Below are positions 17,493 through 25,090 of a stretch of 64,000 nt of DNA, one piece after another. Location of the stretch: IMG/VR virus record IMGVR_UViG_3300007960_000014, positions 1-64,000 of that record; one strand, 5' to 3'. The DNA is from a virus. Below the pieces are notes generated by a model, which saw only the letters and a program-made list of their open reading frames with translations, was not told the origin of the DNA and did no database searches. The stretch's first letter is position 1. Each line of letters begins with the position of its first letter. A program made the position numbers and the translations under genes.

Positions 17493-18501
17493 AAGTTCGA
17501 ATTTGATTTAGTCCTTCTAGTAGTTCTTCTTTTGAAAAAACTACATCACTTTCATCAATGTATGTGTTTATGATGTCATCATCAATGGTTAGAAGCTTAC
17601 CTTCCTTTGAGTAGTTTGAAGTTAACTTTGGTAAAACATCATCAAATACAACTTCAAGGTGAGCCAGCGTATACTTAGAGAGGATTTCATATTTGATAGT
17701 GTTCTCGACATAAGAATCTAACGTATCTAATTTAAGGCGCAGGATAGTAAAGAAATCCTTAAACCTAAATTTAGCATTCATCTCGTCTATGTTATGTAAG
17801 CCACATGAAATATGTCGGATACCATAATCAATTTTTTTCCTATGTACCTCTACCTTTCCATCCCTAATCAAAAGAGAGGTTAGCCACTTCTGTGCATTAG
17901 CTTCTCCAAAGCTAGTTGAATATTGAGTACCTAAGATGTGGATATTGTCCTGTATCTGAGGTAGGTGGATATGACCGAGGAAAGAATACTTTCCTTTTGT
18001 GAAATGGCTACGCTTTAGGTAGGAATCATACTTATAGTTACCGTGGGACTGACAGCCGTCGTACCCGAAGTGCCCAAACATATGATTCTTTGATTCTTTA
18101 ACCGCTTTTACAATATCGCTTTCATGCTCAAAGTGCGGAATGAAATCAAAATCAACACCAGCAATTCTTTCTGTGCCGCACTCGGAGAATACTTTGGCTA
18201 TATCACTAAACAATGAGAGTGTAGTCTCTGTAGACCCACTCTTAGATATTGTGTCGTGATTTCCTCTGTTTATATAAATGTCTTGGCACTCCAAACCCTC
18301 CAACAACTCTCTGAAAGCTAGTAGCTCACTGCCTCTTGGATTGCGTCGGTGAAAGATATCACCGTTAATAACAACCGCGTCCGTGGGTTTTTGGTTTACC
18401 AAACGGGTCAGAGTGTCTACTTGAGTTTGTAAGTACCCTGGAATATAATCGCTTCTTAGGTGTAAATCCGTAAGAAGAACTACTCTTTTAGTTCTGGACA
18501 T
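17482..18501 (-). CDS. Recombination endonuclease subunit, gp47 / Mre11 / SbcD-like
   Basis: 339 residues, same as T4 gp47. Calcineurin-like phosphoesterase motifs in order: LLTDLHLRSD, VINGDIFHRRNPRG, INRGNHDTI, FGHFGYDG and FLGHIHLPQ. These supply the two-metal nuclease site. The C-terminal part is likely the helical cap that contacts gp46. Works with the gp46-like protein downstream at DNA ends. ATG overlaps the polymerase by 14 nt. Confidence 0.92.
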   Translation of the reverse strand: MSRTKRVVLLTDLHLRSDYIPGYLQTQVDTLTRLVNQKPTDAVVINGDIFHRRNPRGSELLAFRELLEGLECQDIYINRGNHDTISKSGSTETTLSLFSDIAKVFSECGTERIAGVDFDFIPHFEHESDIVKAVKESKNHMFGHFGYDGCQSHGNYKYDSYLKRSHFTKGKYSFLGHIHLPQIQDNIHILGTQYSTSFGEANAQKWLTSLLIRDGKVEVHRKKIDYGIRHISCGLHNIDEMNAKFRFKDFFTILRLKLDTLDSYVENTIKYEILSKYTLAHLEVVFDDVLPKLTSNYSKEGKLLTIDDDIINTYIDESDVVFSKEELLEGLNQIRTYEN

Positions 18502-20041
18502 AATTAATTAGTTCTGAGTGATTGGTAAGTACCCCTTCCTCAGTAAAGGTTGCCTCGATACCATCTCCGAAAGATTTACCAACTTCGATATCTACCTCAA
18601 AAGGCACAACAAAATCAAAACCATATAGAGCTGGCAGGTCTTGAGTAGACTGCAAGCAATATTTGAGCAGCTCTGATACTTTTTTTATCTCATCAATGTC
18701 GCACTGTACTTCAACCGAGTCGTGAACGGAAGCTAGAAGGTCTAGGTCCAGACCGAGATGGTTTGAATATTTTTTTACGCGCTCAATTCCATGTAGCATG
18801 AGGTCCGAAGCGGAACTTTGAATGATAAAGTTCATCCCCTGGCGGAGAGCTCTCTCTTGATGAGCACGGGATGGGCTGTTAACGTTTTTAAGGTGCCTCC
18901 TGCGCCCAAACAGACTTGTGGCATACCCATCAGACATAATCTTCTTTCTGCCTTCCTTAATCCACGAGAACACGTTAGGAAAGGCACGAGAGTAATCAGC
19001 AAAAATACCTTTGCAATATCCTAAATCTTTGCCCACCTGCTGTGAAAGTTTGTTAGGTCCGCCGCCGTAAACAATAAGGAAGCTTACCGACTTAGCAATC
19101 TGTCGTTCCTCTTTGGTGATGTCGTCAATCGCCTTTCCGTAAATAAGGGAGGCTGTATACTTGTGCAGGTCTTGACCTTCAGTGAACGCCTTAATTAGGT
19201 TAGGGTCTTGGCAGCACTGCGCAAGCACACGGAGTTCCGCCGTAGCATAGTCCGCAGCGACAAAGGCTTTTCCGTCTTCAGCTACCATCAGTTTTCGGAT
19301 GTTCACTGGGTCATCTGCACTTGGTCGTGGCAGGGTGTGGAACGAAACGCCTTTCTTGTATTCCTTGTTAACGTATTTATTTTTCTTATTTAATTCGCGT
19401 ACCTTAACATTAGGAGTTGAACAAGACAGGCGTCCCGTTACCACAGTTGAGAAGTTGTATTGGGAGTAAATCCTCGGCTCCTCATTCCAATCAACAGATT
19501 TGCGAACACCAGTAACATAGGTTTTGTGTTGCTTGATTCTAGTTTTATATTTTAATAGCGTCTCAATAAACTCTTTAGCTTCTTTGTTAGTAGTCTTTGC
19601 TTTAAGTTTGTCTAGATGCTCTTCAGTGATGGAAGGTAGTTTATTTACCTTAGAAAATATCTCGGGCTGCAAATCAAAACCATCAGACGTAAACAGTACA
19701 CCCGCCAACTCTAAAGTTGAGTTTGGATTAAACTCTTTAACGGGAGACAAATCATTTAGCTTAGCTGACAGAGTTTCTATCTCTTTAACGAGAATAGAAT
19801 CTAGCTCCTCCAAATAAGCCACATCTACCTTAATACCCCTGTTCTCCATCTCAGCCATAGTTAGGAGAATATCTTTTAGAATACCGTCGTACACCTTATC
19901 AACCTTCATCGATTTCATCTTAGGTCGCATTTCTCTATACGCACGTAAGGTAAACTTGCAGTCCATGGCGTTACCAAAAGCCATCTCGTCTAAGGGCATG
20001 TTTGCCCAATCTGTTTCTTTTCCGTTGTTTACTGTAAGCAT
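18488..20041 (-). CDS. DNA polymerase, family A (polymerase domain with end of exonuclease domain)
   Basis: 517 residues. Palm, thumb and fingers of a PolI-type polymerase: motif A PDYATAELRVLAQ-like (VAADYATAELRVL), the O-helix RQIAKSVSFLIVYGG with Arg, Lys, Phe and Tyr at the Taq R659/K663/F667/Y671 spacing, and motif C SVHDSVEVQ with Ser replacing the usual Glu after HD. The first 35 residues carry PLDEMAFGNAMDCKFTLRAY, which looks like Exo III of a 3'-5' exonuclease domain. Exo I and II lie in the separate gene upstream, so the polypeptide is divided inside the proofreading domain. No 5' nuclease domain. Confidence 0.9.
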   Translation of the reverse strand: MLTVNNGKETDWANMPLDEMAFGNAMDCKFTLRAYREMRPKMKSMKVDKVYDGILKDILLTMAEMENRGIKVDVAYLEELDSILVKEIETLSAKLNDLSPVKEFNPNSTLELAGVLFTSDGFDLQPEIFSKVNKLPSITEEHLDKLKAKTTNKEAKEFIETLLKYKTRIKQHKTYVTGVRKSVDWNEEPRIYSQYNFSTVVTGRLSCSTPNVKVRELNKKNKYVNKEYKKGVSFHTLPRPSADDPVNIRKLMVAEDGKAFVAADYATAELRVLAQCCQDPNLIKAFTEGQDLHKYTASLIYGKAIDDITKEERQIAKSVSFLIVYGGGPNKLSQQVGKDLGYCKGIFADYSRAFPNVFSWIKEGRKKIMSDGYATSLFGRRRHLKNVNSPSRAHQERALRQGMNFIIQSSASDLMLHGIERVKKYSNHLGLDLDLLASVHDSVEVQCDIDEIKKVSELLKYCLQSTQDLPALYGFDFVVPFEVDIEVGKSFGDGIEATFTEEGVLTNHSELINYVQN

Positions 20042-20214
20042 TTTAGTTCTCTTATTAAAGTAGATAAATCAATAATTATGTTAGCATATGTAGAGCAAGT
20101 TCCTCCATCTTTTTGTGTATGGTCTCTCACATTTAAGATGTGCTCTAGCGCAGCCTTTAGTGTTTCAATACACTGGTTCACCGCTTCTGGGTGCAAATCT
20201 TTCCTTAACCCCAT
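20029..20214 (-). CDS. Small protein within the split polymerase locus, unknown
   Basis: 61 residues, helical, with PEAVNQCIETLKAALEHILN and IIIDLSTLIRELKCLQ. It begins with an ATG that shares a base with the stop of the UDG/exonuclease gene (TAATG) and its end overlaps the polymerase start by 13 nt, so all three are tightly coupled. No motif for a nuclease or known adaptor is recognised. It could be a real subunit bridging the two parts of the polymerase, or the remnant of an insertion. Two cysteines (positions 15 and 58 approximately) plus one mid-protein. Confidence 0.6.
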   Translation of the reverse strand: MGLRKDLHPEAVNQCIETLKAALEHILNVRDHTQKDGGTCSTYANIIIDLSTLIRELKCLQ

Positions 20215-21188
20215 TAGTAAGTCTCTAGCTCCGTGGGGAAAAATTCTTTAACCAAATCCATCAAGCCATGAGGTAAGTTCTCGTCAATCAAGGAGTGCAT
20301 CATCTGAGTATCCTCAATGTTGGCAAAATCAGAGATACCTAGATTCATCAAAAACTTCAAATCAAACTTGCAGTTATGGAAAATCTTTGCCTGATTTTTA
20401 TTAGCACATACCTCCTTAAGCCTAGAAATCATCTCATTCAATTCCGTGCCAACAAAGGGGGAATCCTTATGATGGACAGGAAGAATAAACGTAGCAGAGT
20501 CTGAGGCAATACCAATGGTCTGTACTTTATCCTTCTTATAATCAAGCCCTGTCGTTTCTATATCAACTGCAAGCTCGGTATCGTTCTTAATCAAATCGAA
20601 CTGCTCATGAATACTATCAACGGTATCACATAGAACGAAATCAAGCTTAGAAAGCTTATTGTTTCCTAGTACAAACTTATCATAAGCATTGTTTACATCT
20701 TGGATAAACAAAGTTCTTAGTTTGGGCTCTAGGTACAAAGACATTGGGTGGAGAGTTGGAACCACAGCGATTGGCTCCTTGCCCTCTTGCACAAAAGGAA
20801 ACTCTTTCCCCCTCTTGTTTGTAACCCCGGACTTCTTTATGACGGCTTTCATTGCCATATTGCCTAGAGGGATAATCAAGGTAGGGGAAATAGCATCTAA
20901 GTCTTCGTACAAGTACTCCCTGTGCTTGGTAAGCATGGCAGTATCCACATCTGATTCTCTAAAGCCATACGATTTAATCGCCGCAACAAACTGGTAGGAA
21001 TTGTTGGGGAGCTTGGTCTGCTCTAAAAGATGTGAAAGAACACCGAACTCTTCGTCAGTGAACTCATATGTTACTCCATTTTCTCTATGAAAAGAATCAT
21101 GAACAAAGACAATTTTAGCGTCTGTCACCTCTTCTCGGTGAAATTGTTCATCATTCATAAAAGAATTTAGTAAAGAATCAGAAATCAT
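20214..21188 (-). CDS. UDG-like domain fused to 3'-5' exonuclease (N-terminal half of a split PolA)
   Basis: 324 residues. Residues about 25-185 resemble family 4/5 uracil-DNA glycosylases: TLIIPLGNMAMKAVI, KRGKEFPFV and the PTLHPMSLYLEP motif. Residues about 205-324 are a DnaQ-type 3'-5' exonuclease: Exo I AVDIETTGLDY and Exo II IFHNCKFDLKFLM. The ORF ends at ELETY, just where uninterrupted PolA proteins continue towards Exo III. UDG-PolA fusions are known in SPO1-type phages. Whether the UDG domain is catalytic cannot be told. Its start is divergent from the sigma gene across 16 nt; no Shine-Dalgarno is visible. Confidence 0.8.
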   Translation of the reverse strand: MISDSLLNSFMNDEQFHREEVTDAKIVFVHDSFHRENGVTYEFTDEEFGVLSHLLEQTKLPNNSYQFVAAIKSYGFRESDVDTAMLTKHREYLYEDLDAISPTLIIPLGNMAMKAVIKKSGVTNKRGKEFPFVQEGKEPIAVVPTLHPMSLYLEPKLRTLFIQDVNNAYDKFVLGNNKLSKLDFVLCDTVDSIHEQFDLIKNDTELAVDIETTGLDYKKDKVQTIGIASDSATFILPVHHKDSPFVGTELNEMISRLKEVCANKNQAKIFHNCKFDLKFLMNLGISDFANIEDTQMMHSLIDENLPHGLMDLVKEFFPTELETY

Positions 21189-21204: not shown

Positions 21205-21606
21205 ATGGAAAGCTTAAAGAAAAATTATATTGATAATAAGCATTTTGAAAAAACTATAAGACTCTATCTTGAGGATAATGATACCTACGAAGAGGAAGTT
21301 GTTCGTTTATTCGACCTGCTTATTACCAATATATTATTATCTTTTAAATTTAAGATTGAATTTGATGACGCGAAACAAGAGTGTTTTTGTTTAGTCCTCA
21401 AAACATTAAAGAACTTTTCTCCTGAAAAAGGTTCAGCCTTTAATTATTTTACTACCGTCATCTTGAACAATCTAAAGCTTCTCTATACAAAAAGAAAGAA
21501 GTATATTGATAAGGTACACGAGTACCGAAAGATTATGGGTGATTTTGGGGTTCAGTCTCAGACTGAAAAAACTGATACAGATTTGAATACTCCACCTGGA
21601 CGCTAA
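21205..21606 (+). CDS. RNA polymerase sigma factor-like protein (T4 gp55 late sigma type)
   Basis: 133 residues on the plus strand. Residues about 50-100 match sigma region 2 as kept in T4 gp55-like factors: FDDAKQECFCLVLKTLKNFS, KGSAFNYFTTVILNNLKLLY and a basic RKKY tail, corresponding to the core-binding and -10-melting helices. No region 4 (-35 binding) domain is present, as in gp55. It probably directs host RNA polymerase to phage late promoters with short AT boxes. The last 74 nt overlap the 3' end of the convergent thioredoxin-like gene. Confidence 0.75.
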   Translation: MESLKKNYIDNKHFEKTIRLYLEDNDTYEEEVVRLFDLLITNILLSFKFKIEFDDAKQECFCLVLKTLKNFSPEKGSAFNYFTTVILNNLKLLYTKRKKYIDKVHEYRKIMGDFGVQSQTEKTDTDLNTPPGR

Positions 21607-21865: not shown

Positions 21866-22163
21866 CGGACTTCTCGGACTTCTCGTATTCAGCCATGATT
21901 TTTGCTTTTTCTTCTTCTGGCATGTTGCTAATCTTTTCATTCAGCTCTTCCATGGTGGCGGAAATGCCTTTGAAAAATAAGATTTTAGCAAGGTCGTCAT
22001 CAGACATACCAGCAGCCAAAGCGTTCTTTACGTTTTTCCACCCGGTAGTCTCTTCCTGAGTAAGTTTAATGTATAATTTCATCCTTCGTGTTGAATATTT
22101 AATTTTAAAGTTGTAATTGTTAGGGTTCAAAGACCCCAGAGTAATTTTTTCAGATTTTACCAT
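21834..22163 (-). CDS. Hypothetical protein, acidic C-terminus
   Basis: 109 residues from ATG at 22163; an internal ATG at 22082 (MKLYIKLTQEE) is possible but would have GAAGG directly against the start. The C-terminal part is helical and acidic (MEELNEKISNMPEEEKAKIM, then a Glu/Lys/Ser tail). No family recognised. It is divergent from the resolvase-like gene across 20 nt, with TATAATAG eight bases before its ATG, and overlaps the thioredoxin-like gene, with which it must be co-expressed. Confidence 0.6.
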   Translation of the reverse strand: MVKSEKITLGSLNPNNYNFKIKYSTRRMKLYIKLTQEETTGWKNVKNALAAGMSDDDLAKILFFKGISATMEELNEKISNMPEEEKAKIMAEYEKSEKSDENAKETNNG

Positions 22164-22183: not shown

Positions 22184-22690
22184 ATGGGAAAAAAGATTGA
22201 AGACATTCTATCCCACGGCGAATTCAAACAAAAAAAGAGAATTAATAGCCGTAGAAAAGGAAATGCATTTGAAAGAAAAATCTCTACATTGTTAAACGAG
22301 AGATTTGAGACAAACGAGTTTTGCCGTTCTCCAGGTTCAGGAGCATTTGCAACAACTCATAAGTTACCTCAACACATTAAAGTCCACGGGGACTTAATTA
22401 CACCAGAAAAATTTAAATTTGTTATTGAGTGTAAATCAGGGTACACGGTTGAGCTTGACGATTTGTTCAAACCTAAATCAGATTTTTGGGCATTTATCGA
22501 CCAAGCTAAGAGAGATGCAAAAGCAGCCAATAAGGATTGGTTGATGGTGTACCAAAAAACTAGAAGAAAGGCAGTCGTGGTTTCTAATGTTAAATACGCT
22601 CTAAAGCATGTAGAGTTATTTGGAGACTGCTACATGTATAGCTTCGATGAGTTCATTAAGCTTCCTGTAAATTTTTTCTTCTCCGACTGA
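22184..22690 (+). CDS. Holliday junction resolvase-like PD-(D/E)XK nuclease
   Basis: 168 residues, plus strand. RRKGNAFERKISTLLNERF matches the N-terminal basic/Glu motif of Hjc-type resolvases, followed by CRSPGSGAFATTH, the GDLI acidic position and FVIECKSGYTVELDDL, i.e. the ECK part of PD-(D/E)XK. The following FWAFIDQAKRDAKAANKDWL helix and VVVSNVKYAL strand complete the fold. It probably cleaves branched DNA left by recombination before packaging. The 3' end overlaps the convergent 824-aa gene by 75 nt. No terminator visible after it. Confidence 0.75.
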   Translation: MGKKIEDILSHGEFKQKKRINSRRKGNAFERKISTLLNERFETNEFCRSPGSGAFATTHKLPQHIKVHGDLITPEKFKFVIECKSGYTVELDDLFKPKSDFWAFIDQAKRDAKAANKDWLMVYQKTRRKAVVVSNVKYALKHVELFGDCYMYSFDEFIKLPVNFFFSD

Positions 22691-25090
22691 ATTAGTATTC
22701 TCTGAGATTGCTGTTGCAAGTATATCAAAGAGTTTAGGTTTAATCTTTGCTTCCATCTTAGGATAGAACACTCCTCCACCCCGAGAAGTTTTTCCTCTTA
22801 GGTCAGTGGAGAACACAACCTCGTTACCTATAGTCCAAGTATAACCTCCAGATGGGGTTCTCGTAGGCTTAGCTTTGCTTAAAACATATTTGGCTACTTG
22901 ATGGTTGCCAGCGAAGCGTATCTCCCCTCTCATAGCTTTCATCATAGCGTCATCCTCTTCGGTGACGAAGGAGCTAATCAAATCATTCATTGCAAAACCT
23001 TCGTTTAGAGAAGGGTCTTGCTCTGCTTTCAACTGCCTCAGGCGACGAATAAAATTAATTCTAGCATTACCAATGGCAGTATTATCCTTGCTAGCTATGG
23101 CGGTATCGATTTCTTGTTGCCACTCACTAAGCATTCGTAGAGTATCCACATCCCCATCAGCCACGTCTCCTAACAAAACGGAGAATGTAGCTTTAATTGA
23201 AGAGCGAGCTCTAGCATCAGAGCCAAACATAGCCTCTGCTGAACGAGCAATAACAGCATCTACTTCCATAGCCTTCTCTGCTACATTACGCTGTGAGGGC
23301 TTTAAGAATTTCTTCCTGGTAGATGTAAACTCTGCTGCTTCCTCACACTTCTGCCTTTGTGCTGCAGTAGATAAAGTTTCGCAGGGGGTGTTGTGGTAAG
23401 CATATGCAGGAGTATAGTAAGAGCTGCCTGATGGAGTATCTTTATCAAACCCGCTTTGAGATTTTAGTGATACACCTACGCCGCCACCCCCGGTAGTGTC
23501 AACCGTTACCTGTCCTGCTCCCAAATCACTAAGGGCTTGAGCGAACTTTTGTGCATCGTTTACACTAGCAAACTCTACCATAAAATCTGCTTTAGTTGTG
23601 GCTGTAGAAACCTTACCTCTTGAAGTAACTCCAGTAGGGGATACCCCTGCATTTTTCGCTACCCGAGCTAAGAAATATGATTCTTTAATGGTGTCTTTTA
23701 TATAATCGACAGCAGCTTTGTTACAATTGTCGGTGTCTATGTCTTTTAGTAGAGATTCAGAAGCGACTCTAGCATCCTCATGCTCAAACGTCATGCCTAA
23801 GTTGCCATCAGTAACAACAAAGTTCTGTATTTGCTCTCCCAAATCGCAGACATCCTTGATAGCTTGAGCAAATGCTTCCATGGCTTCGACAGTGGTAGCC
23901 ACAGATTCGGTGCCGAAAAAAGTATTTAAAGTTCCAATCATCAAATCTTCTTTCTTAGTTCCTAAAACTTGATAGATGTTACCTGCCCCACCACCAACAC
24001 TAGAGTTAAAGATAGCGGGTCGGGTATCCCCCGTAGCGCTCCTCACTTCTATGCCTTTAAATTGAGAACAAATATCTTGAGTGTAGCTACCCATAGACAT
24101 GCCATACATCTCTTGCCCTGCGTATTGAGGGGAAGAAGCCATACCCTCTAAATAGGCTGCGAAGTTAGGGGCTACTCTCTTAACCGAGTCCATGGCTTGT
24201 CTTCTTCCAAACCAAGAACCCGCATTGGTTTTAGGGTTACGGCAAACAAAAGAATCTAAGAGTTTTCTTTCCCTGGGAGTTAAATCAGAATCATCAATGT
24301 AAGAGCCCTCTTTGATTTTTTTTGCTACGCCTATCAAATCCACATGCGCATTAAAAATTTCTTTTTGTACTTCTGGAGCTACCCACGGAGTATCCCCACC
24401 ACGTAGAGACCTTTTGAACTTCATCAACTTGGTGTTGGCACCTGTAGGAGCTAATGTGATTCTATCGAATAAATCCTGAGCATCTATACCAGGAATAACA
24501 CCATCCATCTTTTGCGCGGCTTTCTCTATCTCTCCTGGCTGAGCTTCATAAGGAACGTAGTCTGCTGTTTGGTCAATTTCTTGTCCTGTGTTTGTGTCGA
24601 ATACAGTTCCGTCGCTTTCTGTTTCGGGTGCCTGTTCCCCTCCAGGCTCAGCCTTTAAATTTGCTTGAGCTCCTTCATCATCCGCAATATCACCTTGCAA
24701 ATACTCTATAGCTCCCGCTAGAGTTTTACTGTTGATTCCTGTATGTCCCCCGCCAACACTAAGAGTGTATCTTGTTCCTTTTTGTGTGCGGAACTCCACC
24801 TTAGGTAATGAGCCAGCTTTTTGCGAAGGAATATACATGGGGTCGTAAGTCCCCCCAGTTCCTCTCATCTGTTCGGGAGGCACTTGTAATTTTTGTAGAA
24901 GGTCTGCTTTAATTTGATTCTTTTGTGCGTCGGGTAATTTTGCCGTACCCCCCATCATGGAATTATATCTTCTACTTAGCTCTTGACGACCTTTATCTTT
25001 AGTAGAGGCATCTTCCTGTTCCGTAAGAGAATATTTTCTCTTACGGATGGCTTCATAAGATTCCATTAGTTGGTCGAAGATAGATTCCAT
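22616..25090 (-). CDS. Large protein of unknown function (824 aa) after the tail tube gene
   Basis: No family recognised. N-terminus is helical (FDQLMESYEAIRKRKYSL), followed by a Gly/Gln-rich low-complexity part and an acidic linker (around residues 125-190), then a folded region with DLTPRERKLLDSFVCRNPKT and SWFGRRQAMDSVKRVAP, a Gly/Thr-rich TVDTTGGGGVGVSLKSQSGF segment, and a C-terminal helical domain. An LNEG site near residue 710 fits gp21-type cleavage. Position behind the tail genes suggests a virion or head-completion role, but DNA metabolism is also possible since the next genes are enzymes. The ATG is only 9 nt from a terminator-like stem that contains its GGGGAG. Confidence 0.7.
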   Translation of the reverse strand: MESIFDQLMESYEAIRKRKYSLTEQEDASTKDKGRQELSRRYNSMMGGTAKLPDAQKNQIKADLLQKLQVPPEQMRGTGGTYDPMYIPSQKAGSLPKVEFRTQKGTRYTLSVGGGHTGINSKTLAGAIEYLQGDIADDEGAQANLKAEPGGEQAPETESDGTVFDTNTGQEIDQTADYVPYEAQPGEIEKAAQKMDGVIPGIDAQDLFDRITLAPTGANTKLMKFKRSLRGGDTPWVAPEVQKEIFNAHVDLIGVAKKIKEGSYIDDSDLTPRERKLLDSFVCRNPKTNAGSWFGRRQAMDSVKRVAPNFAAYLEGMASSPQYAGQEMYGMSMGSYTQDICSQFKGIEVRSATGDTRPAIFNSSVGGGAGNIYQVLGTKKEDLMIGTLNTFFGTESVATTVEAMEAFAQAIKDVCDLGEQIQNFVVTDGNLGMTFEHEDARVASESLLKDIDTDNCNKAAVDYIKDTIKESYFLARVAKNAGVSPTGVTSRGKVSTATTKADFMVEFASVNDAQKFAQALSDLGAGQVTVDTTGGGGVGVSLKSQSGFDKDTPSGSSYYTPAYAYHNTPCETLSTAAQRQKCEEAAEFTSTRKKFLKPSQRNVAEKAMEVDAVIARSAEAMFGSDARARSSIKATFSVLLGDVADGDVDTLRMLSEWQQEIDTAIASKDNTAIGNARINFIRRLRQLKAEQDPSLNEGFAMNDLISSFVTEEDDAMMKAMRGEIRFAGNHQVAKYVLSKAKPTRTPSGGYTWTIGNEVVFSTDLRGKTSRGGGVFYPKMEAKIKPKLFDILATAISENTNSVGEEKIYRKLNELIEAIHVAVSK

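Follow-up and report, generated by a model that had tools for sequence, protein, structure and literature searches.

A phage family A DNA polymerase encoded as two chains divided between the Exo II and Exo III motifs of its proofreading domain

In the DNA stretch analysed here (64,000 nucleotides, positions 1 to 64,000 of the IMG/VR virus record IMGVR_UViG_3300007960_000014; hereafter the window), the family A DNA polymerase (PolA) is encoded by two neighbouring genes which divide the enzyme inside its exonuclease domain, and the same division characterizes a whole group of related phages. The explanation we favour, with a probability of roughly 0.8, is an ancient gene fission that resulted in a two-subunit PolA, the proofreading site of which would be assembled in trans.

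The three ORFs concerned lie on the minus strand. The upstream gene (20214..21188, minus) codes for chain 1, the N-half, of 324 aa, which comprises a UDG-fold domain and the Exo I/Exo II strands of the exonuclease, and has its C-terminus in the loop ahead of Exo III. Chain 2, the Pol half (18488..20041, minus, 517 aa), consists of Exo III and the thumb, palm and fingers of PolA. The 172-nt junction of the two polymerase genes (20042..20213, minus) accommodates ORF61, a small coding ORF of 61 codons (20029..20214, minus), with a TAATG overlap on entry and a 13-nt overlap on exit. On re-reading, coordinates, frames and junctions of all three ORFs were found as described in the first-pass annotation. 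Pfam searches identified DNA_pol_A_exo1 (2.7e-18) in the N-half and DNA_pol_A (1.8e-80) in the Pol half, together with a UDG match in the N-half (6e-5) whose 23.6 bits are slightly below the 24.3 cut-off. Matched to the PHROG 17 model, the N-half extends over positions 478-785, and 793-1242 are covered by the Pol half; essentially nothing is therefore lost at the split. The source record, an 84-kb viral contig, has a single PolA and a single DNA_pol_A_exo1 match, and lacks PolB.

To map residues, the halves were aligned with E. coli PolA and with three intact phage PolAs. The chains part after residue ~472 of E. coli Pol I (~472/473), between Exo II (D424) and Exo III (Y497/D501), in agreement with the initial proposal of a split inside the proofreading domain; the position of the cut is identical throughout the split group, and no residues are missing. 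The comparison with intact PolAs, also suggested at that stage, equates D209 and E211 of the N-half (Exo I, D209-I-E211; 20556..20564, minus) with E. coli D355 and E357, and D276 (Exo II; 20361..20363, minus) with D424. Both Exo I residues and the Exo II aspartate are present in 49/49 non-redundant N-halves. Chain 2 begins 26 residues ahead of the Exo III aspartate, D27 (19961..19963, minus), which aligns with E. coli D501 and thereby places Exo III on a separate polypeptide, as had been claimed. This aspartate occurs in 52/52 sequences, a set that is partly biased because one of the search patterns contained GNAMD; deep members found without the Exo III pattern keep it as well (GNSMD in L167, GCAMD in L168, GNAID in L169 and GCSMD in L173). 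All four DEDD carboxylates are thus present, spread over two chains. Four positions ahead of the Exo III aspartate, where E. coli has the DEDDy tyrosine (Y497), there is a glycine, G23 of chain 2 (19973..19975, minus), in 52/52 sequences and in 17/17 split rows of the PolA alignment. Judged by these residues, the exonuclease would be of DEDD type rather than a strict DEDDy member. Because glycine takes the place of the tyrosine in all aligned members, its activity may be weak or altered, and proofreading in the split group may be altered with it. Chain 2 further possesses the aspartates of PolA motifs A and C (E. coli D705, D882) and the O-helix residues R754/K758/F762, as expected of family A. 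The position of E. coli E883 is Ser in split members (motif C HDS) and Ala in the three intact phage PolAs.

AlphaFold2 models of the chains, each predicted alone, reached mean pLDDT values of 81.9 (chain 1) and 82.7 (chain 2). The model of chain 1 matches family-4 UDGs (4zby, E 6.7e-9), consistent with a UDG fold, as well as PolA exonuclease domains and Klenow, while that of chain 2 matches the Bst/Taq large fragments (E ~1e-29). The weakest confidence flanks the cut, at about residues 291-324 of chain 1 and 1-30 of chain 2, which would be expected if those stretches need each other; further weak stretches are the N-terminus of chain 1 and a loop near 190-210 of chain 2. The catalytic motif A of family-4 UDGs is of the GEAPG type. 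At the corresponding site, as inspected by eye in the sequence, chain 1 reads VFVHDSFHR, and an HP-containing stretch resembling UDG motif B is also present.

Relatives were collected by searching each half separately, and came from many metagenomes. With the window counted, 66 non-identical IMG/VR members have both halves in view, and none of them is fused; as the matches were limited to the best 80 of 123 and the best 80 of 103, an intact close relative may have escaped. Later search patterns lay away from the junction, and a fused relative should therefore have been caught. One intact remote PolA (L008) was set aside from the 66, and L077, L078 and MT835490 were likewise excluded from the split group as remote PolAs. 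Many rows are contig fragments, and chains 1 and 2 are adjacent wherever the contig is long enough. Independent metagenome contigs repeat the arrangement over a range of Pol half identities from 84% to less than 50%. Pairwise dN/dS, for pairs unsaturated at synonymous sites, is 0.02-0.09 in both halves; in the measurable pairs both halves are under strong purifying selection. In addition, each of 15 records contains just one PF01612 match, and a search of six records detected no PolB. The members are uncultured, apparently marine phages. Among GenBank phages, even the best matches to the Pol half are only about 27-31% identical, and a search of genome contigs disclosed one remote match only, in an archaeal MAG.

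Examination of the junction in these related phages, which the first-pass annotation had recommended, revealed variable contents: at one extreme the two genes overlap by 1 nt (TAATG), at the other they are separated by cargo genes spanning 3.7 kb. The halves abut with the 1-nt TAATG overlap in L029, L167, L169-L171, L173, L187 and L193, and are 1-22 nt apart in L058, L090, L092 and L166/L168 (1 or 22 nt in the last, depending on the aligned Pol start). ORF61 alone is found in the window, L004 and L207. Other junctions carry glutamine synthetase (GS), ThyX, a PD-(D/E)XK nuclease, a saccharopine dehydrogenase-like gene, small ORFs, or a combination of such genes, the longest junction being that of L027/L087 (3.7 kb). 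The cargo of L027 includes a 659-aa ORF (L027:4017-5993) with zero Pfam matches. In the record of L030, ThyX is located outside the polymerase junction (G002:88987-89580), unlike in relatives with ThyX inside. No homing endonuclease was recognised among the identified cargo families. As an illustration of exchange between close relatives, the flanks of L058 (1-nt gap) and L246 (GS) are ~90% identical and the two differ by one whole cargo gene, and L193 and L075, ~74-78% identical, likewise differ by the presence of cargo. On a quick tree of 54 members with long basal branches, the minimum number of changes is 11 for GS, 10 for the ORF61 family and 4 for ThyX, counts that cannot separate gain from loss. 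Four outgroup rows and several tips have junctions without a cargo ORF (gap -1 to 22 nt). This distribution points, tentatively in view of the long basal branches, to the bare junction as the earlier condition, and most likely the gene was already split when cargo entered it; the earlier idea that an insertion had split the gene is accordingly not favoured. An SD-like core precedes the Pol start in 27/66 members against 16.4 expected, an excess too weak to support a conserved ribosome-binding site, which was rejected.

In one branch chain 2 is divided again, into ORFs of 157 and 371 aa with an ATGA overlap (L176/L187, L181, L182, L185 and L223). The second cut maps to the thumb, at about E. 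coli residue 620. The three-piece ORFs were read in L176 (L176:7001-8586, two ORFs of 157 + 371 aa), L181, L182 and L223; in L183 the initial 157-aa piece was read as well. On the tree, the five rows with three pieces cluster as one clade, accounted for by a single change.

The first-pass annotation had offered two halves reassembling as subunits with the 61-aa protein as a bridge. Subunits are the best reading of the observed conservation, while a bridging protein that holds the halves together appears quite improbable. ORF61 belongs to a real coding family, with dN/dS of 0.09-0.55 where measurable; it overlaps or abuts the Pol start in several members, the window among them, and in the records searched the family occurs only at the polymerase junction, all of which would suit a bridge. 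Against this, the family is lacking from the junction in many relatives, several of which have a bare junction, and was found nowhere in 10 of the 15 records searched (some of which may be fragments). It is also fast-evolving, with 23-47% identity to the window copy in the family alignment, and between the window and L004 it diverges far faster (33-36% identity) than the halves do (76-84%). Furthermore, L031 carries an apparent deleted remnant of ORF61, the neighbouring L232 having an intact copy. ORF61 is thus an optional passenger of the junction. Searches of Pfam, PHROGs, PADLOC and PDB with it gave nothing significant, and neither did a query of GenBank phages with another family member. 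Still less probable is that the halves are joined before or after translation, by an intron, translational bypassing or frameshifting, or split inteins. A one-base frame change would indeed fuse the frames in bare-junction relatives, but a slippery heptamer is not evident in the few junctions read, and up to 3.7 kb of cargo with several intact genes intervenes in other relatives, where frameshift and bypass are excluded. Scanning against Rfam with a relaxed threshold detected no intron family, group I or II, at the junction, in line with the earlier remark that 172 nt is too short for a group I intron, and the bare junctions of some relatives likewise speak against intron RNA at this site. Inteins were rejected, since the flanks of the cut line up directly with intact PolAs and contain no additional stretch where intein segments could sit.

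An unlikely alternative, though more plausible than bridging or joining, is that proofreading is being lost, with chain 1 serving another role (UDG-fold DNA or uracil recognition, or a clamp) and chain 2 acting as an exo-minus polymerase. The glycine at the Tyr497 equivalent in every aligned member would agree with such a loss, and so would the fact that inspection of chain 1 by eye did not bring out the usual UDG motif A; the UDG-like domain may accordingly be a binding module. An abandoned exonuclease would, however, be expected to lose its metal-binding carboxylates, and the invariance of all four in the aligned sets, with purifying selection on both halves, counts against it. A sequencing or assembly error, or a decaying gene, is refuted. 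One relative (L069) does have a frameshifted polymerase gene, but identical or homologous junctions recur in many independent contigs, which excludes the error that the first reading had named as a possible refutation, a sequencing mistake or frameshift joining the ORFs, and the measured dN/dS is far below 1. The gene of L069 (L069:3-1538) bears eight in-frame stops in this frame, apparently frameshifts.

According to the fission model that we prefer, a family A polymerase of replicative type would have been divided once, in the common ancestor of the phage group, by a TAATG-like stop/start change in the loop that connects Exo II with Exo III. Translation of the chains would proceed separately, from adjacent cistrons and often with stop/start coupling. 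Chain 1, with its UDG-fold and Exo I/II parts, would pack on the Exo III helix of chain 2 and contribute three metal-binding carboxylates, the fourth being provided by chain 2. The junction would then be permissive for insertion, a site at which accessory genes are acquired and lost, ORF61 being one of them and no obligate bridge, and in one subclade chain 2 would have been cut again in the thumb. Physical association of the chains, retained exonuclease activity and the order of these events are deduced from sequence comparison and from analogy. A tentative extension, which we hold to be possible rather than likely, is a multi-subunit family A replicase in which proofreading has become a detachable, trans-assembled module without the usual tyrosine, and the internal boundary a standing landing site for accessory genes (nitrogen/thymidylate metabolism, nucleases). 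Such a site might persist because two interdependent halves flank the boundary and keep it intact.

Split phage polymerases are already known. The nearest case is that of the OM43 phages MEP401 and MEP402, in which a family A polymerase is encoded by two ORFs that flank a small unknown ORF; split DNAPs occur in most of their group I relatives, and the authors suspected an intron (PMC10580990). PolA in two ORFs around a small ORF is common to these phages and the window. Their cut, the position of which was checked here, lies in the palm just before motif A, whereas that of the window group lies in the exonuclease domain, and their N-terminal ORF opens directly with the exonuclease, without the UDG domain of window chain 1. 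One phage polymerase made as two polypeptides is also represented by gp43 (43A/43B), a family B enzyme split in Aeromonas phages 25 and 44RR beside a seg homing endonuclease or an untranslated spacer (PMC2988022). The split pair of phage 25 co-purifies and is active (PMC2988022), which supports the proposed assembly of the chains. In contrast to the two related phages reported for gp43, the window type extends over a large diverse clade with changing cargo. Other essential phage enzymes, Aeh1 NrdA and T4 topoisomerase, are split by mob endonucleases with function reported or inferred to be kept (PMC2988022), a difference from the window group, where homing endonucleases are not among the recognised cargo families. 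Polymerases of the SPO1 gp31 type have the same UDG-exo-PolA domain order as the window pair, and a tblastn match to SPO1 spans 93% of the N-half, but they are one polypeptide with an annotated intron in the polymerase part. In the openly available papers searched, no report was found of a PolA divided inside the exonuclease domain. What is most unusual about the window group is the division of the active site between chains, the lack of the tyrosine, the branch with three pieces and cargo exchange inside an essential gene. In Rhizobium phage L338C, PolA is annotated in GenBank as two overlapping ORFs (L097:2794-5621), while its relative RHph_I4 has one.

The split group is a natural experiment, extending over an entire clade, on whether a proofreading site can be formed by two polymerase chains; its three-piece branch also bears on how much fragmentation a replicase can withstand. 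With glycine in place of the tyrosine, one may ask how phages with split polymerases proofread, or whether they do so at all, and the junction illustrates the use of a split essential gene as a place of cargo exchange. Natural split boundaries could also serve as a guide when two-part polymerases are designed.

Downstream of the split polymerase, the window carries SbcD-like and SbcC-like genes, GroES and ribonucleotide reductase. A short ORF at 21205-21606 (plus) diverges from the polymerase operon, with weak sigma-factor matches (E 0.05-0.08), and an 824-aa ORF at 22616-25090 (minus) has zero PHROG matches. A ribosomal S15 leader match at 21873-21952 (minus; 34.7 bits, below the 39.5 cut-off) lies within a coding ORF and is probably a chance similarity.
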